Part shown: positions 11,899-52,528 of the stretch, piece after piece
Layout: each line of letters starts with the position of its first letter
Numbering within the stretch: the first letter of the stretch is position 1
Origin: an actinobacterium SCGC AAA278-I18
Lineage (GTDB): Bacteria; Actinomycetota; Actinomycetes; Nanopelagicales; Nanopelagicaceae
Direction: 5' to 3'
DNA: 57,271 nt
NCBI GenBank assembly: GCA_000378865.1
Contig: KB900402.1
Span: forward strand, 1,857 to 59,127
Program-made: the position numbers and the translations under genes
Notes under the pieces: generated by a model
The model's input: the letters and a program-made list of their open reading frames with translations, nothing else
Database searches by the model: none
Told to the model about the DNA's origin: nothing

Positions 11899-13590
11899 AT
11901 GAGCGATAACAATCCGCCAAATAAAATGAAGCCAAGATCTGGCTTAGTAACCGATGGTATGGAGCGTGCTCCTGCTCGGGGAATGCTGCGCGCAGTTGGT
12001 ATGAAGGATGAAGATTTTGCTAAACCACAAATTGGTATTGCATCCTCTTGGAATGAAATTACGCCATGTAATTTATCTTTAGATCGTCTAGCTAAAGCAT
12101 CTAAAAAAGGTGTGATTGCTGCCGGTGGTTTTCCAATGCAATTTGGCACTATCTCTGTCTCTGATGGCATCTCAATGGGTCATGAAGGAATGCATTTTTC
12201 TTTAGTATCACGTGAGGTAATTGCTGACTCTGTTGAAACTGTTATGCAGGCAGAGCGGTTCGATGGCATGGTTACCTTCGCAGGTTGTGATAAATCATTA
12301 CCAGCGATGATGATGGCAGCAGCAAGAATGGATGTGGCAAGTGTCTTTGTTTACGCCGGATCTACAATGCCTGGAAAAGTAGATGGCCGCGATGTAACAA
12401 TCATTGATGCATTTGAGGCGGTTGGTGCGTGCGCGCGTGGATTAATCACGCAGGATGAGGTAGATAAAATTGAACGGGCAATCTGTCCAGGTGAGGGTGC
12501 CTGTGGTGGCATGTACACCGCAAACACTATGGCTGCAGTTGGTGAAGCAATTGGCTTATCACTTCCTGGCTCAGCTTCTCCTCCCTCTATTGATAGGCGC
12601 CGTGATGATTACGCTGTTAAATCTGGGGAAGCAGTAGTTGAATTAATCCGTAAGGGAATTACTACTAGACAAATTCTTACCAAGAAAGCATTTGAAAATG
12701 CAATTACAGTTGTTATGGCGCTAGGTGGCTCAACTAATGCTGTTCTGCATTTACTTGCAATTGCCCATGAGGCGGAGGTTGATTTAACACTTGAGGATTT
12801 TCATAGAGTTGGTTCTAAGGTGCCATTGCTTGGGGATTTAAAACCATTTGGTAAGTATGTAATGACTGATGTAGATAAAGTTGGCGGAATTCCGGTAATT
12901 CTTCGTGCGTTATTAGATGCTGGCCTATTACATGGTGATTGTTTAACTGTTACGGGCAAAACAATGGCGGAGAATCTAAAGGATATAACGCCACCAGATC
13001 CAGATGGTGAAATTCTTAAAGCGGTAAGTAATCCACTTTCTCTAGGTGGTGGCATCTCAATTCTTAATGGCTCACTTGCTCCAGATGGCGCAGTTTGTAA
13101 GACAGCTGGAGTTGGCGTTGATCTATTTGAAGGTCCAGCCAAAGTATTTGAAAGAGAACAAGCAGCGATGGATGCATTAGAGAATGGATCAATTGTTGCA
13201 GGTGATGTGGTAGTTATTAGGTATGAGGGACCAAAGGGTGGTCCTGGTATGAGAGAGATGTTAATGATTACTGGCGCAATTAAAGGCGCCGGTCTTGGTA
13301 AATCTGTTTTATTAATTACTGATGGCAGATTCTCTGGTGGCACAACCGGACTTTGCGTTGGACATGTTGCCCCAGAAGCTGTTGATGGTGGTCCAATTGC
13401 ATTTGTTAAAAATGGTGATCGAGTAAGAATCGACACAAAAAATCGAAAATTAGATTTATTAGTAGATGAAAAAGAGATGAGTGAGCGAAAGAAAAGTTTT
13501 AAACCAGTCCCACATAAATACCGCCGCGGGGTATTAGCTAAGTATTCAAAGTTAGTCGGTAGTGCTGCAAAGGGTGCGGTCTGCGATTAA
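11899..13590 (+). CDS. ilvD: Dihydroxy-acid dehydratase
   Basis: Fe-S enzyme forming 2-keto acids in valine, isoleucine and pantothenate synthesis, 563 aa. The family motifs [14 protein letters not shown] and [16 protein letters not shown] carry the cluster cysteines, and the C-terminal [21 protein letters not shown] block is present. It has its own apparent promoter and is separated from the ilvB operon by a 241-nt leader region. It therefore probably escapes the attenuation that controls ilvBNC. Confidence 0.96.
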
Positions 13591-13599
13591 TTGCAGTTT

Positions 13600-13608
13600 T
13601 GTTATAGT
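13600..13608 (+). promoter_or_regulatory. Extended -10 promoter of the ilvB operon leader
   Basis: TGTTATAGT fits an extended -10 (TGn plus TATAGT at 13603-13608), starting 10 nt after the ilvD stop. No good -35 is seen 17 nt upstream. A start near 13615 would give a leader RNA of about 215 nt before ilvB. Confidence 0.5.
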
Positions 13609-13677
13609 CACGCTCAAATATTGAGATCGAAATCTACCAGGTTGACTAGACCCAACTACACCTGAGAAACTACGGCC

Positions 13678-13752
13678 ATGAAGAACACTTCGCTAATCTC
13701 ACAAATCGCGATCACATCTGTGGTCGTGGTGATTATCGAGCGTGCGCGCTAA
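13678..13752 (+). CDS. Branched-chain amino acid leader peptide (attenuator)
   Basis: A 24-codon reading frame starting MKNTSLISQIAITS and continuing with four Val (residues 15-18), two Ile, then ERAR and TAA. Ten of 24 residues are Leu, Ile or Val. It lies in the ilvD-ilvB gap and is followed 19 nt later by an intrinsic terminator, the arrangement of a transcription attenuator. Shortage of charged tRNA-Val or tRNA-Ile would stall the ribosome and raise ilvB operon expression. Similar ilvB leaders are known in other actinobacteria. The ribosome site is weak. It is far below usual gene-calling length. Confidence 0.85.
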   Translation: MKNTSLISQIAITSVVVVIIERAR

Positions 13753-13772
13753 CAGAAATAGTTAGTTCGCAC
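13742..13772 (+). promoter_or_regulatory. Leader hairpin over the leader-peptide stop codon
   Basis: GTGCG (13742-13746) pairs with CGCAC (13768-13772) and CTAAC (13749-13753) with GTTAG (13761-13765), around a 2x2 internal loop. It includes the TAA of the leader peptide and shares base 13772 with the terminator stem. A ribosome ending translation would melt it. Its exact part in attenuation is inference. Confidence 0.5.
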
Positions 13773-13802
13773 CCCTCAGATAAAACTGGGGGGTTTTGTT
13801 TT
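13772..13802 (+). terminator. Attenuator terminator upstream of ilvB
   Basis: CCCCTCAG (13772-13779) pairs with CTGGGGGG (13786-13793) over 8 bp including one U-G pair, loop ATAAAA, followed by TTTTGTTTT (13794-13802). It ends 29 nt before the ilvB ATG. Confidence 0.85.
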
Positions 13803-13831
13803 AGATAAGCAACTAGTTAAGAGAGGAAGCG

Positions 13832-15568
13832 ATGAGCAAGATGAATGGTGCGCAAAGTTTAATTAACGCACTTGAGGCTGCTGGGGTTGATGTCATGTTT
13901 GGCATACCAGGCGGTGCAATTCTTCCTGCTTATGATCCGATCTTTGATTCAAAGATTCGCCATATTTTAGTTCGCCATGAGCAAGGTGCCGGGCACGCTG
14001 CAACTGGATATGCTCAAGCAACTGGTCGAGTTGGAGTTTGTATTGCCACCTCAGGTCCTGGTGCCACAAATTTAGTAACACCACTTGCTGATGCTCAAAT
14101 GGACTCAGTTCCAATTGTGGCTATTACTGGACAGGTACCATCTGCAGCGATTGGTACCGATGCTTTTCAAGAGGCTGATATTCGCGGCGTTACCATGCCA
14201 GTTACCAAACATAATTACTTAATTACTGATCCAGCTGATATCCCACGAGCAATTGCGGAGGCATTTTATATTGCAAGCACTGGTCGCCCCGGTGCAGTGC
14301 TAGTTGATATTGCCAAAGATGCGTTGCAGAAAGAGACCACTTTTAACTATCCAAAAAATGTTTCACTAGCTGGCTATAACCCAGTAGTTGAACCAAAACA
14401 ATCTGCTGTCCTTGATGCAGCAGCATTAATTGCTCAATCAAAGAAGCCAGTGCTCTATGTTGGTGGCGGAGTTATTAAAGCTAATGCGGCAAAAGAGTTA
14501 ATGCAGCTTGCAGAGATTACCGGTGTGCCAGTTGTGACAACTTTGATGGCACGAGGTGCATTCCCTGATTCGCACAAGCAACATCTTGGTATGCCTGGTA
14601 TGCATGGCACAGTTGCCGCGGTTACCGCATTACAAAAGGCAGATTTGCTAATTACCTTAGGCGCTAGATTTGATGACCGAGTAACTGGCAAGCTCTCTAC
14701 CTTTGCACCAAAAGCTAAAATTATTCACGCCGATATTGATCCAGCAGAGATTGGTAAGAATCGCCATGCCGATGTTGCATTGGTAGGAGATCTTAAAAAT
14801 ATCTTGCGAGCGTTAAACCCTGCTACTAAAGCAGCTCTTGCAAAATCTGCGCCAGATTTAACACCATGGCTTAATGAGGTTTATGGCTGGAGATCAAAGT
14901 TTCCACTTGGTTATGACAAACCATCTGATGGCTCTGTCTCACCACAGAATGTAATTGAGCGAATTGGCAAAATCTCAGGTCCTGACACAATATTTACAGC
15001 AGGTGTTGGCCAACATCAGATGTGGGCATCCCAATTTATTGGTTATGAAAAACCTAGAACCTGGCTTAACTCAGGTGGCTTAGGAACGATGGGTTATGCA
15101 GTACCTGCTGCAATGGGGGCAAAGGTAGGAGCTCCTGACACAACAGTCTGGGCAATTGATGGTGATGGTTGTTTTCAAATGACAAATCAAGAGTTAGTAA
15201 CTTGTGCAATAAATAATATTCCAATCAAGGTTGCAGTAATTAATAATGAATCACTAGGAATGGTTCGCCAGTGGCAGACTTTGTTTTATAACCAGCGGTA
15301 TTCAAATACCGATCTGCACTCAAAGCGGATTCCGGATTTTAAATTACTAGCTGAGGCGATGGGTTGTGTGGGACTTCGATGTGAGCGACCTGAGGATGTT
15401 GATAAGACAATTGAGGCTGCAATGGAGATTAATGATCGACCAGTTGTAGTTGATTTTAATGTTCACCGTGATGCAATGGTTTGGCCGATGGTGGCAGCTG
15501 GCACATCAAATGATGATATTACTGTTGCCAGATCTATGGCTCCAGTATGGGATTCACAGGAGTTGTAA
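13832..15568 (+). CDS. ilvB: Acetolactate synthase, large subunit
   Basis: TPP/FAD-dependent enzyme condensing pyruvate (or pyruvate and 2-ketobutyrate), the first common step of valine and isoleucine synthesis; 578 aa. The catalytic-Glu region [18 protein letters not shown] and the TPP motif IDGDGCFQM...NN are present. ATG 13832 follows AGAGGAAG. It is the first gene of the attenuated operon, and its stop overlaps the ilvN start by one base (TAATG). Confidence 0.96.
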
Positions 15569-16119
15569 TGGCAATCCACACATTAGCGGTTTTAGTTGAG
15601 AACTCACCTGGTGTTCTAGCACGGGTTGCTTCATTGTTTTCTCGTCGTGGTTACAACATTGATTCACTCGCTGTTGGTCCAACTGAGAATCCAAAGGTTT
15701 CTCGTATGACTATTGTTTTAAATTTAGAAGGGCATGCTTTAGATCAAGTGAGCGCACAATTATTTAAATTAGTAAATGTAATCGGCATCTCTGAGATGAA
15801 GGATTCTGATTCACTAAAACGAGAGATTTTATTAGTTAAGGTGGCAAATAATGCTGCTAATAAAGAGGTTGCAAGTAAGCATAAGGCGGTTATTTCAGAT
15901 GAAACAACAACAACTATCTCAATAGAGGCGGTTGGGCAATCATTTGAGATTGAAGCACTACTTGCAGATTTAAAGCCAAATGAAATTCGAGAGTTAGTTC
16001 AATCAGGCTTGGTGGCATTAGAGCGGGGCGCCAGCACCTTGGCAGACCGTACGCTAAGCACCATGGGAACTGCTAACGAGTCAGATCCAAATAGTTCCAC
16101 AGCTGATTACCAGAATTAA
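15568..16119 (+). CDS. ilvN: Acetolactate synthase, small regulatory subunit
   Basis: Regulatory partner of IlvB that confers valine feedback inhibition in the family, 183 aa. It has an N-terminal ACT domain (HTLAVLVENSPGVLARVASLF, then RRGYNIDSLAVGPTE) and an ACT-like C-terminal domain. The start is ATG 15568, overlapping the ilvB stop, with AGGAG upstream; the frame extends into ilvB without use. Confidence 0.96.
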   Translation: MAIHTLAVLVENSPGVLARVASLFSRRGYNIDSLAVGPTENPKVSRMTIVLNLEGHALDQVSAQLFKLVNVIGISEMKDSDSLKREILLVKVANNAANKEVASKHKAVISDETTTTISIEAVGQSFEIEALLADLKPNEIRELVQSGLVALERGASTLADRTLSTMGTANESDPNSSTADYQN

Positions 16120-16133
16120 CTACTATCAAATAA

Positions 16134-18773
<2,640 letters not shown>

Positions 18774-18777
<4 letters not shown>

Positions 18778-19811
18778 AGAGTTTTAATTTAGCAGTCATT
18801 GCCGGTGATGGAATTGGACCAGAGGTAGTAGCTGAAGGCATAAAGGTACTAGATGTCATTGCAAAAAAATATGATCTAGCCTTTAACAAAATAGATTATG
18901 AATTAGGTGCTGCTTATTGGCATAAGACTGGTGAAACACTTCCTGATTCAGTAATGGCAGAGCTTGCAAAAGCGGATGTGATTTTATTGGGAGCGGTTGG
19001 GGATCCAACTGTGCCAAGTGGTGTATTAGAGCGAGGATTACTACTTAAATTACGTTTTGCTTTTGAGCATTACATAAATCTGCGGCCAGCAAAGTTATTT
19101 CCTGGCGTTACCTCACCAATTACAAATAATAAAGGTATTGATTTCATAGTAGTTAGAGAGGGAACTGAAGGTTTATATGTTGGTGCTGGCTCAATAAAGG
19201 ATGAGGGCACAAACAAAGAGCTAGCAATTGAGGAGTCTATTAATACCTATAAAGGTATCGAGCGAGTCATTAGAGATGCATTTGGTAGAGCGATGGCACG
19301 TCCTCGTAAGAAACTTACCTTAGTTCATAAGAACAATGTATTAACTAGAGCAGGTGGTCTTTGGACTCGAGTATTTAATGAGGTAGCAAAGGATTTTCCG
19401 CAAGTAACAACAGATTATCTACATGTTGATGCTGCCTCAATGTTTTTTGTAACAAACCCAGAGCGCTTTGATGTAGTGGTAACTGATAATCTATTTGGTG
19501 ACATAATTACTGATATTGCAGCTGCAATCTGTGGTGGAATTGGACTAGCAGCTAGTGGCAATATCAATCCAACCGGTGCCTTTCCTTCTATGTTTGAACC
19601 AGTTCATGGCTCAGCCCCTGATATTGCTGGAAAGAACTTAGCTGATCCAACTGCAACTGTATTATCTGTTGCCATGATGTTAAATCACCTAGGGCAGAGC
19701 CAAGCTGCAAGTGATGTTGAAGCAGCAGTTGCCAAGGATTTGGTAAGCCGTGGTGATAAGAAGCGCTCTACAACTGAAATTGGTGATGCATTGGTAAAGG
19801 CTCTCTCATGA
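18774..19811 (+). CDS. leuB: 3-isopropylmalate dehydrogenase
   Basis: NAD-dependent oxidative decarboxylase, 345 aa. [17 protein letters not shown] at the N terminus and the [19 protein letters not shown] block are typical. It normally serves leucine synthesis; in the citramalate route the same enzyme also oxidises erythro-3-methylmalate, which fits the cimA gene two positions downstream. It overlaps serA and ilvE by ATGA junctions. leuA, leuC and leuD are not in the window. Confidence 0.93.
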
Positions 19812-20893
19812 AGGTAATTAGTAAACCAAATACGAAGCCGCTAGATGCAGCAGAGCGTAATAAAAGAGTTGCCGAGCCTGGCTTTGGTAAGTACTACACC
19901 GACAATATGGTTATTGCCCAGTGGAGTGAAGCAACTGGTTGGTCTGATGCAACATTGCAGGCCTATGGTCCACTCTCATTAGATCCTGCCACCATGGTTT
20001 TTCACTATGGCCAAGAGATATTTGAAGGAATGAAGGCTTATACCCAACCAGATGGCGGTATTTCATTATTTAGACCAGAGGCAAATGCAAAACGTTTTGC
20101 AAAATCAGCGGCCAGAATTACGTTGCCACAGATGCCAGTTGAATTTTTTGTGCAAACAGTTGAGGAGTTAGTTAAGCAAGATAAGGGTTGGGTGCCAAGT
20201 AAAGTTGGTGAATCTTTATATTTACGCCCCTTTATGATTGCAACTGAGGTTGGACTTGGCGTTCGTCCATCTAATCACGCAACCTATGTATTAATTGCCA
20301 CCCCTGCTGCTGCTTACTTTAACGCAGCAAAAGCGGTAACAGTTTGGATCTCAACTGAGTATGTCAGAGCAGCATTAGGTGGCACAGGGGAAGCAAAGTG
20401 CGGTGGAAATTACGCAGCCTCACTCCTTGCACAAAAACAAGCAGCACAAGAGGGTTGTGATCAGGTTGCATATATTGATGCGGTAGAACGCAAGTGGGTA
20501 GAGGAGATGGGTGGCATGAATCTCTACTTTATTAAGGGAAGTGGCAAAGCAGCCAAGATAATGACGCCAAAACTAACCGGCACATTACTTCCTGGCATAA
20601 CCCGTGATTCAATTCTAACTTTAGCTAATGATCTTGGATATAAAACTGAGGAAACCATGATTTCAATTGATGATTGGCGTGATGGGGTTAAATCTGGTGA
20701 GATCACTGAAATCTTTGCTTGTGGCACCGCCGCTGTTGTCTCTGCAGTAGGGGCAGCAAAAAGTGTTCATGGCACTTGGCAAACTGGTGATGGAAATCCT
20801 GGCGTAATTACCAATGAGATTCGCGCAGCACTTCTTGGAATTCAACATGGCTCTGCCCCAGATAAGTATGGCTGGAATAAGCGGATTATCTGA
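19808..20893 (+). CDS. ilvE: Branched-chain amino acid aminotransferase
   Basis: PLP-dependent transaminase for the last step of Val, Ile and Leu synthesis, 361 aa (the long type II form). The PLP lysine is K197 in [16 protein letters not shown], and [10 protein letters not shown] and the [13 protein letters not shown] region match. It is joined to leuB by an ATGA overlap and to cimA by TGATG. Confidence 0.95.
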
Positions 20894-22479
20894 TGACTAT
20901 TAATGATTCATTTCATATCTATGACACCACACTTCGCGATGGCGCCCAACAAGAGGGATTAAATCTCTCTGTCCACGACAAGTTAACTATTGCTCGGCAT
21001 CTAGATGATTTAGGTGTTGGTTTTATTGAAGGTGGTTGGCCAGGGGCTAATCCAAAAGACACTGAGTTTTTTAAATTAGCTCAAACTGAGTTAAAGCTAA
21101 AGAATGCAACCTTTGTAGCCTTTGGTGCAACTAGAAGGCCTGGAGTTAAAGCTGCCGATGATCAACTACTACGGGCATTGCAAGATTCAAAGGCGCCGGT
21201 AGTAACTTTGGTTGCAAAGAGTCATGATCGCCATGTTGATCTTGCGCTTAAGACTGATCTTGATCAAAATCTTGCGATGATCACCGACTCTATTAAGTTT
21301 TTAAAAGCAGGCGGACAAAGAGTTTTCTTAGATGCAGAGCACTTCTTTGATGGTTACCTATCTAATAAGGCATACGCACTTGAGGTGGTAAGAGCTGCGG
21401 TTGAGGCAGGAGCTGATGTTGTAGCACTTTGTGACACAAATGGCGGAATGCTCCCTGATCAATTATCAAATATTGTTCATGAGGTATTAACCTCTTCATC
21501 TGCTCGGCTTGGTATTCATTGCCACAATGACACAGGGTGCGCTGTTGCTAACTCACTTGCTGCAATCTCTGCCGGTGTTACCCATGTGCAAGGAACATTA
21601 AATGGATATGGTGAGCGAACAGGCAATGCCGATTTAGTAAATATCATTGCAAATCTTGAATTAAAGAAAGATAAATTAGTACTACCACAAGGAAAATTGC
21701 AGGAGGCATTTCGTATTTCTCACGCTGTTGCAGAAATTACAAATGTGGCGCCAAGTGCGCGCCAACCATATGTTGGCACCTCAGCCTTTGCTCATAAAGC
21801 AGGGCTTCATGCATCTGCAATCAAGGTAGATCCAATGATGTATCAACACGAAACCCCAGAATCAGTTGGAAATGACATGCGAATGTTGGTCTCTGAGATG
21901 GCAGGCCGGGCTTCAATCGAACTTAAATCAGCAGAGCTTGGAATTGATTTGGGTGGAGATAAAGATTTAATTGGCCGAGTAGTTGAAAAGGTTAAGGATC
22001 TTGAAGGTAAAGGCTTCACCTTTGAAGCAGCTGATGCCTCATTTGAATTACTACTTCGCACCGAAGTTTTAGGTAAGAGGCCAAGCTTTTTCACCATCGA
22101 AGACTGGCAAACCACAGTTCACCAAGATGAATCTGGGAAGGTAACTTCAAAGGCAACTGTAAAGATAAATGCAAAGGGTGAAACAATTTCAGCCCAAGGT
22201 GTTGGAAATGGTCCAGTTAACGCAATTGATAACGCACTTCGTTCTGGTCTTGAGAAGTTTTATCCAGAGCTTTCAAAACTTGAGTTAACTGATTACAAAG
22301 TTCGTATTTTAGAAGGCCGTCTTGGCACCGGGGCAGTAACTAGAGTTTTGGTTGAAACAAGTGATGGAAATGGCGAGTGGAGCACAGTTGGCGTTCATGA
22401 GAACGTAATTGCCGCCTCAGCAATGGCATTAGATGACGCGGTTACCTATGGCTTACTTAGGCAGGGAAGAACGCCATAA
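20893..22479 (+). CDS. cimA: (R)-citramalate synthase
   Basis: Condenses acetyl-CoA with pyruvate to citramalate, giving 2-ketobutyrate for isoleucine without threonine dehydratase; 528 aa. The HMGL-like TIM barrel starts YDTTLRDGAQQEGLNLSV, with the metal site HCHNDTGCAVANSLA and a C-terminal LeuA-dimer regulatory domain. GGWPGANPKD and the overall length favour CimA over 2-isopropylmalate synthase. It is the last gene of the ilvB operon. Substrate choice is from family resemblance and context. Confidence 0.88.
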   Translation: MTINDSFHIYDTTLRDGAQQEGLNLSVHDKLTIARHLDDLGVGFIEGGWPGANPKDTEFFKLAQTELKLKNATFVAFGATRRPGVKAADDQLLRALQDSKAPVVTLVAKSHDRHVDLALKTDLDQNLAMITDSIKFLKAGGQRVFLDAEHFFDGYLSNKAYALEVVRAAVEAGADVVALCDTNGGMLPDQLSNIVHEVLTSSSARLGIHCHNDTGCAVANSLAAISAGVTHVQGTLNGYGERTGNADLVNIIANLELKKDKLVLPQGKLQEAFRISHAVAEITNVAPSARQPYVGTSAFAHKAGLHASAIKVDPMMYQHETPESVGNDMRMLVSEMAGRASIELKSAELGIDLGGDKDLIGRVVEKVKDLEGKGFTFEAADASFELLLRTEVLGKRPSFFTIEDWQTTVHQDESGKVTSKATVKINAKGETISAQGVGNGPVNAIDNALRSGLEKFYPELSKLELTDYKVRILEGRLGTGAVTRVLVETSDGNGEWSTVGVHENVIAASAMALDDAVTYGLLRQGRTP

Positions 22480-22526
22480 ATTTTTAAGTATTTTCCAAAT
22501 ATGGACCTAAAATCTTAATTTAGGCT

Positions 22527-22532
22527 TATACT
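22527..22532 (+). promoter_or_regulatory. Possible -10 of the SGNH-like gene
   Basis: TATACT at 22527-22532 directly follows TAGGCT at 22521-22526 in the 87-nt gap after cimA. Either could serve as -10. No convincing -35 is visible. Confidence 0.35.
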
Positions 22533-22554
22533 CATTCCGCTCCTACTAAATCTT

Positions 22555-22562
22555 GGGGGGGG
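22555..22562 (+). repeat. Homopolymeric G8 tract before a start codon
   Basis: Eight consecutive G end 4 nt before the ATG at 22567, in an AT-rich gap. The tract occupies the ribosome-binding position. Such tracts can change length by slippage, but they also attract assembly errors. Confidence 0.75.
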
Positions 22563-22566
22563 TTCT

Positions 22567-23362
22567 ATGCAGCATCTACTTCCATTACTTAATTTAAGTA
22601 CCTTCTCGCTAAATATTTTAGGTGGTTCCATAATTTCAAATTACGGGTTAAGACCCAATGCAAAAAATATGACAGATTTGATCCTTGTAAGAAATCCATC
22701 AATTAATTTAGACAAAGAAATATCAGTTGGTGGATTGGGTTTTTCTCAAGCTATACCAATTCTCGACGAGCTGCGTCATACAGAAATATTAATTATGTAC
22801 TTCGGTACATCCATTGGCTGGCCAAGAATTAGTAGGAAAATGGAAAACTATCTAAAGCCAGAAATGCTAACTTCAACAACTTTTCATATTCCTCTATACA
22901 AGAGTGTAATTTTAAGTCATCGAATTAAGGCAAAAATCCGCCATCTTGAGCGAAATCTATTTAAATTGATTTTGTACCCATTCGGTCTATATAAACCAAG
23001 GCATTCACTGGAAGATTTACCAAATTTAATTAAAGCCATAGAACATATTGCAGATCGAAAATCTTGTTTAATAATCTGGGTGCAGCATAACGCTTTAGGA
23101 TATCGGAGGTTATGGTTAGAACGAAAGTCTTATAAAAGATATTACAAAGAAATATTATCAAGAACTTGGTAAAGAGAAATCACCACATTTTAGAATTCTT
23201 AGCCCAGGCAATGAATTCCTAGTTCAAGAGAATTATGCACTAGATGGTGTGCACCTCAGTGAGCTAGGTCATGAACGTATGGGAGTGATGATCGGCAATG
23301 AGATCAACCAGGCACTTTCTGAAGTTCGCAATTATGCAAAAAGTGAGTCAGAACAACAGTAA
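22567..23362 (+). pseudogene. SGNH/GDSL-like hydrolase gene broken by a frameshift
   Basis: The first frame codes 201 residues and stops at 23170-23172. Reading continues in the +1 frame from about 23131-23155 to TAA 23360-23362, giving SPGNEFLVQENYALDGVHLS and then ELGHERMG. The upstream part has a GGS block (LNILGGSIISNYG) and an FGTSIGWP segment; the downstream part supplies the D-x-x-H of SGNH block V. One extra base near 23140-23152 explains both frames. The gene is rich in ATA, AGA and AGG codons, unlike its neighbours. It may be a true pseudogene, a contingency gene, or a sequencing error. The SGNH assignment rests on two short blocks only. Confidence 0.6.
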
Positions 23363-23421
23363 TTTGTTAGAAACATAGTAACTACTAGCCCTCCTTAACC
23401 TTTATAGGGAGAAATGCCCGC

Positions 23422-23427
23422 TAATCT
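23422..23427 (+). promoter_or_regulatory. -10 element of xerC
   Basis: TAATCT lies exactly 6 nt before the xerC ATG at 23434, with no Shine-Dalgarno sequence. This again suggests a leaderless start. Confidence 0.45.
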
Positions 23428-23433
23428 CTATTT

Positions 23434-24333
23434 ATGTCCGCCGCCTTGATCACCCAGTATGAGGAACACCTGGCGTTGGTAAGAAATTTATCTGATAACT
23501 CAATTCGGGGATATGTAACAGATTTAGAGTCTTTTCTTAAACATATGGAGAAGATGGGAATTGTTGAGTTTAATCAATTAGAAATTGAGCACATTCGCTC
23601 CTGGCTGGCTAATTTACAAACCACAGGAGTTGCAAGATCAACCTTGACTAGAAGAATTGTTTCAATCAGGGCTTTCACAAATTGGGCCGCAGCTAATGGT
23701 TGGTTGACCTCTGATTTAGGAGTAAACCTTGCAGTTCCTAAACCACATAAAGTGTTGCCTGAGGTTTTAAATGTTGAGGATGCTGCCACAGTATTAAAAG
23801 CACTTGAGGTTAAGTGTGTTGAGGAGCCAAGTGCAATTAATTTACGTGATTTAGCATTGGTTGAGGTTTTATATAGCTCAGGTATTCGAGTATCTGAGCT
23901 TTGTGGTTTAAATCTTGGCGATATTGATCGTAGTAGAAATACTTTAAATGTAATTGGTAAGGGAAATAAGCAGCGGGTTGTACCCCTTGGATTACCAGCG
24001 GTTAGAGCAATTGAGAGTTACTTAAAAAATGCAAGGGGTGAGTTTGTAAATCAAAATTCACAAGATGCACTCTTTTTAGGATCTCGTGGAAAAAGAATTG
24101 ATCAAAGAACAGTTCGGGAGGTTGTTTATGAAGCTATGAAGGCAGTTGGTTCTGATATGGGTCCACATGGACTTCGCCACTCTGCTGCAACTCATTTACT
24201 AGAAGGTGGCGCAGATCTTAGAACCGTGCAAGAGATATTAGGACATGCATCTTTATCTACAACTCAGATCTATACCCATGTTTCACCTGAGCGTTTGCAA
24301 TCTGCCTACAAACAAGCACACCCAAGGGCGTAG
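23434..24333 (+). CDS. xerC: Tyrosine recombinase XerC
   Basis: Resolves chromosome dimers at dif with XerD, 299 aa. The N-terminal SAM-like core-binding domain covers about residues 1-85. The catalytic residues are visible: R152 (SGIRVSEL), the lysine of GKGNKQRVVPL, H245 and R248 (HGLRH), H271 (LGHASLS) and nucleophile Y280. Its place upstream of rpsB-tsf is the actinobacterial position of the housekeeping xerC, so it is not evidence of a mobile element. Confidence 0.93.
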   Translation: MSAALITQYEEHLALVRNLSDNSIRGYVTDLESFLKHMEKMGIVEFNQLEIEHIRSWLANLQTTGVARSTLTRRIVSIRAFTNWAAANGWLTSDLGVNLAVPKPHKVLPEVLNVEDAATVLKALEVKCVEEPSAINLRDLALVEVLYSSGIRVSELCGLNLGDIDRSRNTLNVIGKGNKQRVVPLGLPAVRAIESYLKNARGEFVNQNSQDALFLGSRGKRIDQRTVREVVYEAMKAVGSDMGPHGLRHSAATHLLEGGADLRTVQEILGHASLSTTQIYTHVSPERLQSAYKQAHPRA

Positions 24334-25803: not shown

Positions 25804-25910
25804 GTAGTTAGAAATAACTACTCGGTTCTAGATGCTAGGGATCTAGCAAATTGTTAGATCACAAACCGAGTGCTCTTTATTACTTTAGGTAAAAAAGAGT
25901 GAAAAAGGAG
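25804..25910 (+). promoter_or_regulatory. Structured rpsB leader RNA
   Basis: Three stacked elements precede rpsB. P1 is GTAGTTA-gaaa-TAACTAC (25804-25821), a 7-bp stem with a GAAA tetraloop. P2 is ACTCGGTT (25820-25827) with AACCGAGT (25864-25871), 8 bp, enclosing either GCTAG-ggat-CTAGC (25834-25847) or the competing GATCTAG/TTAGATC pair (25840-25846 with 25854-25860). P3 is CTCTTT..TTAC with GTAA..AAAGAG (25873-25899). AAGGAG follows at 25905-25910. This looks like an autoregulatory ribosomal-protein leader for S2; binding by S2 is inference. Confidence 0.65.
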
Positions 25911-52403: not shown

Positions 52404-52460
52404 ATAACAATCAGCAAAAAACTTTATTAGCTAAGAGTTTTGGTCCTCGGTAGTGGTTTC

Positions 52461-52528
52461 CGGAAAAGGATTTTCCGTGAACTTCGATCGAAGATCCATT
52501 CTCTTTATGTAAAGTGTTGAGAAATGGA
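52461..52528 (+). promoter_or_regulatory. pnp leader: three stem-loops, the last over a start codon
   Basis: CGGAAAA-gga-TTTTCCG (52461-52477) is a perfect 7-bp hairpin. The 12-nt palindrome CTTCGATCGAAG (52482-52493) follows. Then TCCATT-CTC (52495-52503) pairs with GAG-a-AATGGA (52519-52528), which contains ATG 52524. In E. coli, pnp is autoregulated through RNase III cleavage of a leader stem; a similar role here is inference. Confidence 0.55.

Follow-up and report, generated by a model that had tools for sequence, protein, structure and literature searches.

The ilvBNC attenuator (ilvL) of C. glutamicum, or ilvB-II motif, shares with the locus described here a short Val-run peptide that is leaderless (in our case by prediction), a hairpin abutting an intrinsic terminator, a position before ilvB and a three-hairpin layout (PMC11857589, PMC10272879). 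In C. glutamicum, transcription of ilvBNC starts one nucleotide from the leader start codon, and its three hairpins serve as anti-antiterminator, antiterminator and terminator; the second and third adjoin and compete over three bases at their boundary (PMC11857589). According to work cited in that paper, the message is leaderless and replacement of valine by alanine in the leader abolishes the response. The M. tuberculosis ilvB1NC attenuator likewise has in common with our locus a branched-chain upstream open reading frame (uORF), a U-tract terminator and a proposed alternative antiterminator; it differs in its regulatory run, LVVI, and in being described as a three-gene operon, ilvB1-ilvN-ilvC, and changing LVVI to AAAA abolishes induction (PMC13236596). 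Seliverstov et al. (2005) predicted actinobacterial ilvB leaders that also resemble ours, with short ORFs rich in Ile, Leu and Val (ILV) and, downstream of them, terminators, all ahead of ilvBNC, ilvBHC and ilvB-serA1 operons, in a set without Nanopelagicaceae and without an assigned antiterminator (PMC1262725). A result cited in the same paper counts against the mechanism: altered leader codons were without effect at S. coelicolor ilvB. Candidate uORFs rich in branched-chain codons precede ilvB in the ilvB-OMG and Leptospira ilvB motifs too, which belong to other lineages and are likened here by their description (PMC10272879). Our literature search found no report on ilvB leader attenuation in Nanopelagicales.

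The window, a stretch of 57,271 nucleotides from the very small freshwater actinobacterium SCGC AAA278-I18 (genome of 944 kb, 76% complete), carries a promoter and leader between ilvD (11899-13590), the 5' neighbor, and ilvB, which begins at 13832. We conclude that this switch is the Nanopelagicaceae version of the ilvB leader attenuator known in other actinobacteria, as in C. glutamicum ilvBNC and M. tuberculosis ilvB1, a result that is sound and largely expected; a translation-dependent transcription attenuator of this type is very probably what the region encodes. It differs from C. glutamicum ilvL as follows: the peptide has 24 residues rather than 15, the peptide and RNA sequences differ, two bases rather than three are shared between the adjacent hairpins, and the operon is longer by serA, leuB, ilvE and cimA.

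All elements of the switch lie on the forward strand. The promoter (13642-13671) comprises a -35 element, TTGACT (13642-13647), an 18-nt spacer and an extended -10, TGA-GAAACT (hexamer 13666-13671). It was not among the sites listed by a simple sigma-70 scan; we call it because relatives keep the distance from the -35 to the leader start codon fixed, 66 of the 67 Nanopelagicaceae leaders counted having 35 or 36 nt there. Six bases separate the end of the -10 from the ATG at 13678, a distance short enough for us to predict a leaderless peptide, with transcription starting at or beside the A of the ATG. The leader ORF, MKNTSLISQIAITSVVVVIIERAR (13678-13752; 24 codons, TAA at 13750-13752), includes the peptide segment SVVVVIIERAR, and its codons at 13720-13737 are GTG GTC GTG GTG ATT ATC. 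The 156-nt leader RNA is considerably more stable than its shuffles (-50.8 kcal/mol vs -35.8 +/- 3.7; z -4.1, none of 200 as good). In its minimum free energy (MFE) fold, hairpin A (13705-13730, 11 bp) covers the valine codons and is a counterpart of the C. glutamicum anti-antiterminator by position only. Hairpin B (13742-13772), the candidate antiterminator core, lies over the stop codon in both MFE and nascent-RNA folds; a 45-nt segment of the window with most of this hairpin is no more stable than shuffles (z -0.7). The intrinsic terminator (13771-13802) has a 9-bp stem (13771-13779/13786-13794) with six GC pairs and a U-tract running to 13802 (tail TTTGTTTT), is the strongest terminator-like site (13771-13794) among those listed for 13560-23700, and is almost invariant in its 5' arm and loop within the window organism's genus. 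An earlier sequence-only reading of this stretch had proposed an extended -10 promoter, a Val4-Ile2 run, a hairpin over the stop codon and an intrinsic terminator before ilvB, and all four were borne out, the promoter by its fixed spacing in relatives and the terminator also by its conservation; the reading gave 13772 as the single base common to hairpin B and the terminator, but 13771 is shared as well.

The leader region occurs once in the window's own genome, and the arrangement of leader, hairpin and terminator recurs throughout the family beyond chance. In the ilvB upstream regions of about 100 Nanopelagicaceae genomes, nearly all complete ones include a Val-rich run within a short ORF; a few loci such as L036, L078 and L079, whose terminator variant falls outside the search pattern, were left unscored. 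The 49 distinct family leader peptides range from 8 to 30 residues, with a mean ILV content of 44% and a longest ILV run of 3 to 7, so that Val/Ile-rich leaders are found family-wide rather than the relatives lacking branched-chain codons that the sequence-only reading had named as grounds for rejecting its claim. More remote Actinomycetes share this geometry, MRTRILVLGKRVG and MRLLVVLGQRAG being examples of their peptides, and 41 of 56 named class-wide loci show it under a strict pattern; we therefore take the arrangement to be a probable ancestral feature of the class. Valine codons in the window and family leaders are GTG in 149 of 220 cases (68%), whereas long ORFs use GTG for about 14% of their valines; RNA structure and tRNA charging are candidate causes. 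In a complete relative, tRNA-Val genes with UAC and GAC anticodons are present and one with CAC is lacking, leaving GUG without a tRNA of its own, which bears on selective charging as an idea for the GUG bias.

Comparative folding of the leader in relatives, suggested by the sequence-only reading as a check, yielded a hairpin B that covaries and a covariance model, built on this hairpin together with the terminator, that matches 140 of 151 family genomes, the best matches lying just upstream of ilvB, with one match in the window's own genome. Covariation was assessed on 35 family sequences aligned apart from the genus, because in a joint MAFFT alignment hairpin B fell into two registers offset by five columns. 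In this family version, five of the 11 pairs of hairpin B have compensatory changes, and hairpin B and the terminator together have 10 cells changed on both sides, compared with 4.1 for shuffles, of which none of 500 reached as many. Control slides of +2 and -3 columns returned the same cell count, but 50% and 25% of those cells were paired, versus 90% without a slide. Hairpin B has two pairing registers, one in the genus (L026-L031) and one in the rest of the family (L002-L024), and in both it remains next to the terminator and the peptide's Arg-Ala end. Its end is never more than a few bases from the terminator in the leaders measured, and it starts 9.9 +/- 2.9 nt after the last Val codon, the standard deviations of the ATG-to-terminator and stop-to-hairpin B distances being 15.9 and 5.6. 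In 49 of 59 distinct leaders, Val is the last codon at which a stall keeps hairpin B intact; these counts, like the others across leaders, come from related sequences and are not independent. Peptide-controlled attenuation, the central claim of the sequence-only reading, is well supported by the Val/Ile leader, terminator and promoter spacing kept across the genera of the family and by homologous leaders that are experimentally attenuators.

Which genes would such a switch control? The seven genes downstream, all on the forward strand and each above its own NCBIfam cut-off, encode the acetolactate synthase large subunit IlvB (13832-15568; NF005860, 1069 bits), the small subunit IlvN (15547-16119, overlapping ilvB; NF008864, 166 bits), ketol-acid reductoisomerase IlvC (16158-17189; NF004017, 556 bits), phosphoglycerate dehydrogenase (PGDH) SerA (17182-18777, overlapping ilvC; TIGR01327, 597 bits), 3-isopropylmalate dehydrogenase LeuB (18774-19811; NF002898, 559 bits), branched-chain aminotransferase IlvE (19808-20893; NF009897, 473 bits) and citramalate synthase CimA (20893-22479; TIGR00977, 632 bits). 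From ilvB to cimA (13832-22479) neighboring genes overlap or almost touch, and from this tight packing we infer that one switch would control all seven; C. glutamicum ilvBNC has three promoters (PMC11857589). The gene content given by the sequence-only reading was correct, including serA and cimA, but their presence is not special to this locus, the order being ancestral in actinobacteria. Long Nanopelagicaceae loci have the identical order with ilvD upstream, and other families have the same order with insertions, so the cluster, judged by gene order, is old and was compacted here, not newly assembled. Just 3' of the operon lies a gene of the phage integrase family (XerC/D-like; 23434-24333), after which come a methyltransferase gene and, at 25899, ribosomal protein S2. 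A TIGR01327 search of eight family genomes found one full-length PGDH in each, the operon serA. The threonine deaminase (IlvA) model gave only weak, sub-cut-off matches in eight family genomes (G000, G001, G005, G014, G026, G032, G062 and G123), and the best of these was taken as threonine synthase, since it is flanked by ORFs read as homoserine dehydrogenase and homoserine kinase. For these reasons citramalate is probably the sole entry to isoleucine.

The sequence elements, their conservation, the promoter geometry, the spacing from Val run to hairpin B and the gene order were established directly; the transcription start, ribosome stalling, antitermination and a single transcript for seven genes are modeled from here on. 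RNA polymerase would start at or beside the leader ATG, and a ribosome would load on the leaderless message. With ample charged Val-tRNA (and Ile-tRNA), the ribosome would reach the stop codon and mask the 5' arm of hairpin B, allowing the terminator at 13771-13802 to form and transcription to stop. With charged Val-tRNA scarce, the ribosome would stall in GUG GUC GUG GUG with its leading edge just 5' of hairpin B, which could then form and, in the window organism's genus, extend into the 5' arm of the terminator. The terminator would thereby be delayed, and polymerase would continue into ilvBNC-serA-leuB-ilvE-cimA.

The predicted extension (13733-13783, forward strand) pairs 13733-13740 with 13775-13783 atop hairpin B in nascent-RNA folds, and before the 3' arm of the terminator is made it captures six of the nine terminator 5'-arm bases. 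When stalls were modeled with the ribosome edge set, by assumption, at P-site +15, the extension was kept whole or in part at Val15 or Val16 and lost with stalls beyond Val16; hairpin B alone remained at Val17 or Val18 and was partly or wholly removed from Ile19 on. The computed refolding barriers to the terminator are about 9, 6, 3 and 3 kcal/mol for Val15, Val16, Val17 and Val18, the background being 3. In this model the extension would serve as a workable switch of the mutually exclusive kind, more sensitive to valine than to isoleucine. Since the complete leader folds terminator-on at every ribosome position, any such antitermination must be kinetic. The judgment of the sequence-only reading that no antiterminator excluding the terminator is obvious was too strong, because nascent hairpin B is predicted to form a mutually exclusive antiterminator in the genus by extending into the terminator 5' arm. 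Against a synonymous-codon null the extension is no better than expected, random leaders being as good in 17% of cases for the window and 43% for the family median, and the nascent folds of 76 distinct family sequences include 16 with fewer than three terminator-arm bases paired; we therefore regard it as a prediction and not as a demonstrated selected feature. Hairpin B and its placement are, on comparative grounds, better supported than its extension into the terminator arm.

Could the leader work without hairpin B excluding the terminator at all, through a kinetic or steric effect of the hairpin or of a stalled ribosome abutting the terminator, with no true antiterminator? The failure of the extension to surpass the codon null is what such an arrangement would lead one to expect, and so is the overlap between hairpin B and the terminator, which varies from -1 to 6 nt and is zero in 27 of 69 distinct sequences. 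However, mutations in C. glutamicum support competition at the boundary of two adjoining hairpins with three bases in common (PMC11857589), and the other 60 of the 76 nascent folds pair at least three terminator-arm bases, so that we hold this explanation to be possible but doubtful. It is less probable still that a classical mutually exclusive antiterminator is dispensed with (few or no shared bases, hairpin B being placed by the Val run and not by the stop codon) in combination with a conserved promoter operator and valine control of both the only PGDH and the only isoleucine entry, a composite reading that we consider unlikely. A metabolite-binding riboswitch or T-box could also account for a conserved structured leader before ilvB, a gene that, according to work cited in PMC10272879, is under ppGpp riboswitches in Firmicutes. 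An Rfam 15 search of the leader region gave no family match at gathering score, weak matches having E >= 1.6, and elsewhere in the window an Actino-pnp RNA was found (RF01688, 70.8 bits; 52439-52499). The leader frame, codons and leaderless spacing are all conserved, and the Corynebacterium ilvB-II RNA is unaltered by ppGpp (PMC10272879), which together make a riboswitch or T-box extremely improbable.

The remaining explanation assigns control mainly to a transcription factor acting at a palindrome upstream of the -35, the leader being a minor trim. Of 96 distinct ilvB promoters from Nanopelagicaceae, 79 match the palindrome, TGAGAT-N4-ATCTCA, at 10 or more of its 12 positions (about 0.2% expected by chance for each promoter), mostly exactly 20 nt before the start of the -35, and in the four of eight tested genomes with an exact match this is a single copy at ilvB. 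A wider variant, about TGRGAY-N4-RTCYCA, was seen across family loci (L002-L111), and in some other Actinomycetes similar sites, among them TGAGAC-N4-GTCCCA, occupy roughly the same position. NdgR binds upstream of ilvB in S. coelicolor (PMC4340878), but the palindrome is unlike the published NdgR motif (PMC8222616) and is absent from the ndgR-leuC region of a relative, and its assignment as an NdgR site was rejected. A complete relative (L197) has a lone IclR-type gene divergent from a leuC-like gene, a probable NdgR/LtbR ortholog. The window's own copy (13622-13637, just upstream of the -35) is degenerate, with two mismatches, and a mainly transcriptional control would leave the conserved Val leader and terminator unexplained; we judge it quite improbable. 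The palindrome instead suggests a second, promoter-level control at a candidate operator, in addition to the peptide-controlled attenuator.

If the operon is one transcript, the valine-tuned attenuator would reach serine and isoleucine synthesis as well, since no second full-length serA and no IlvA were found. The Nanopelagicaceae (acI), whose genomes are streamlined, rank among the most abundant bacteria of fresh water, and this peptide attenuator has been kept in nearly every genome examined. Their many diverged leaders amount to a comparative test of the competition between adjacent antiterminator and terminator hairpins in actinobacterial ilvB.
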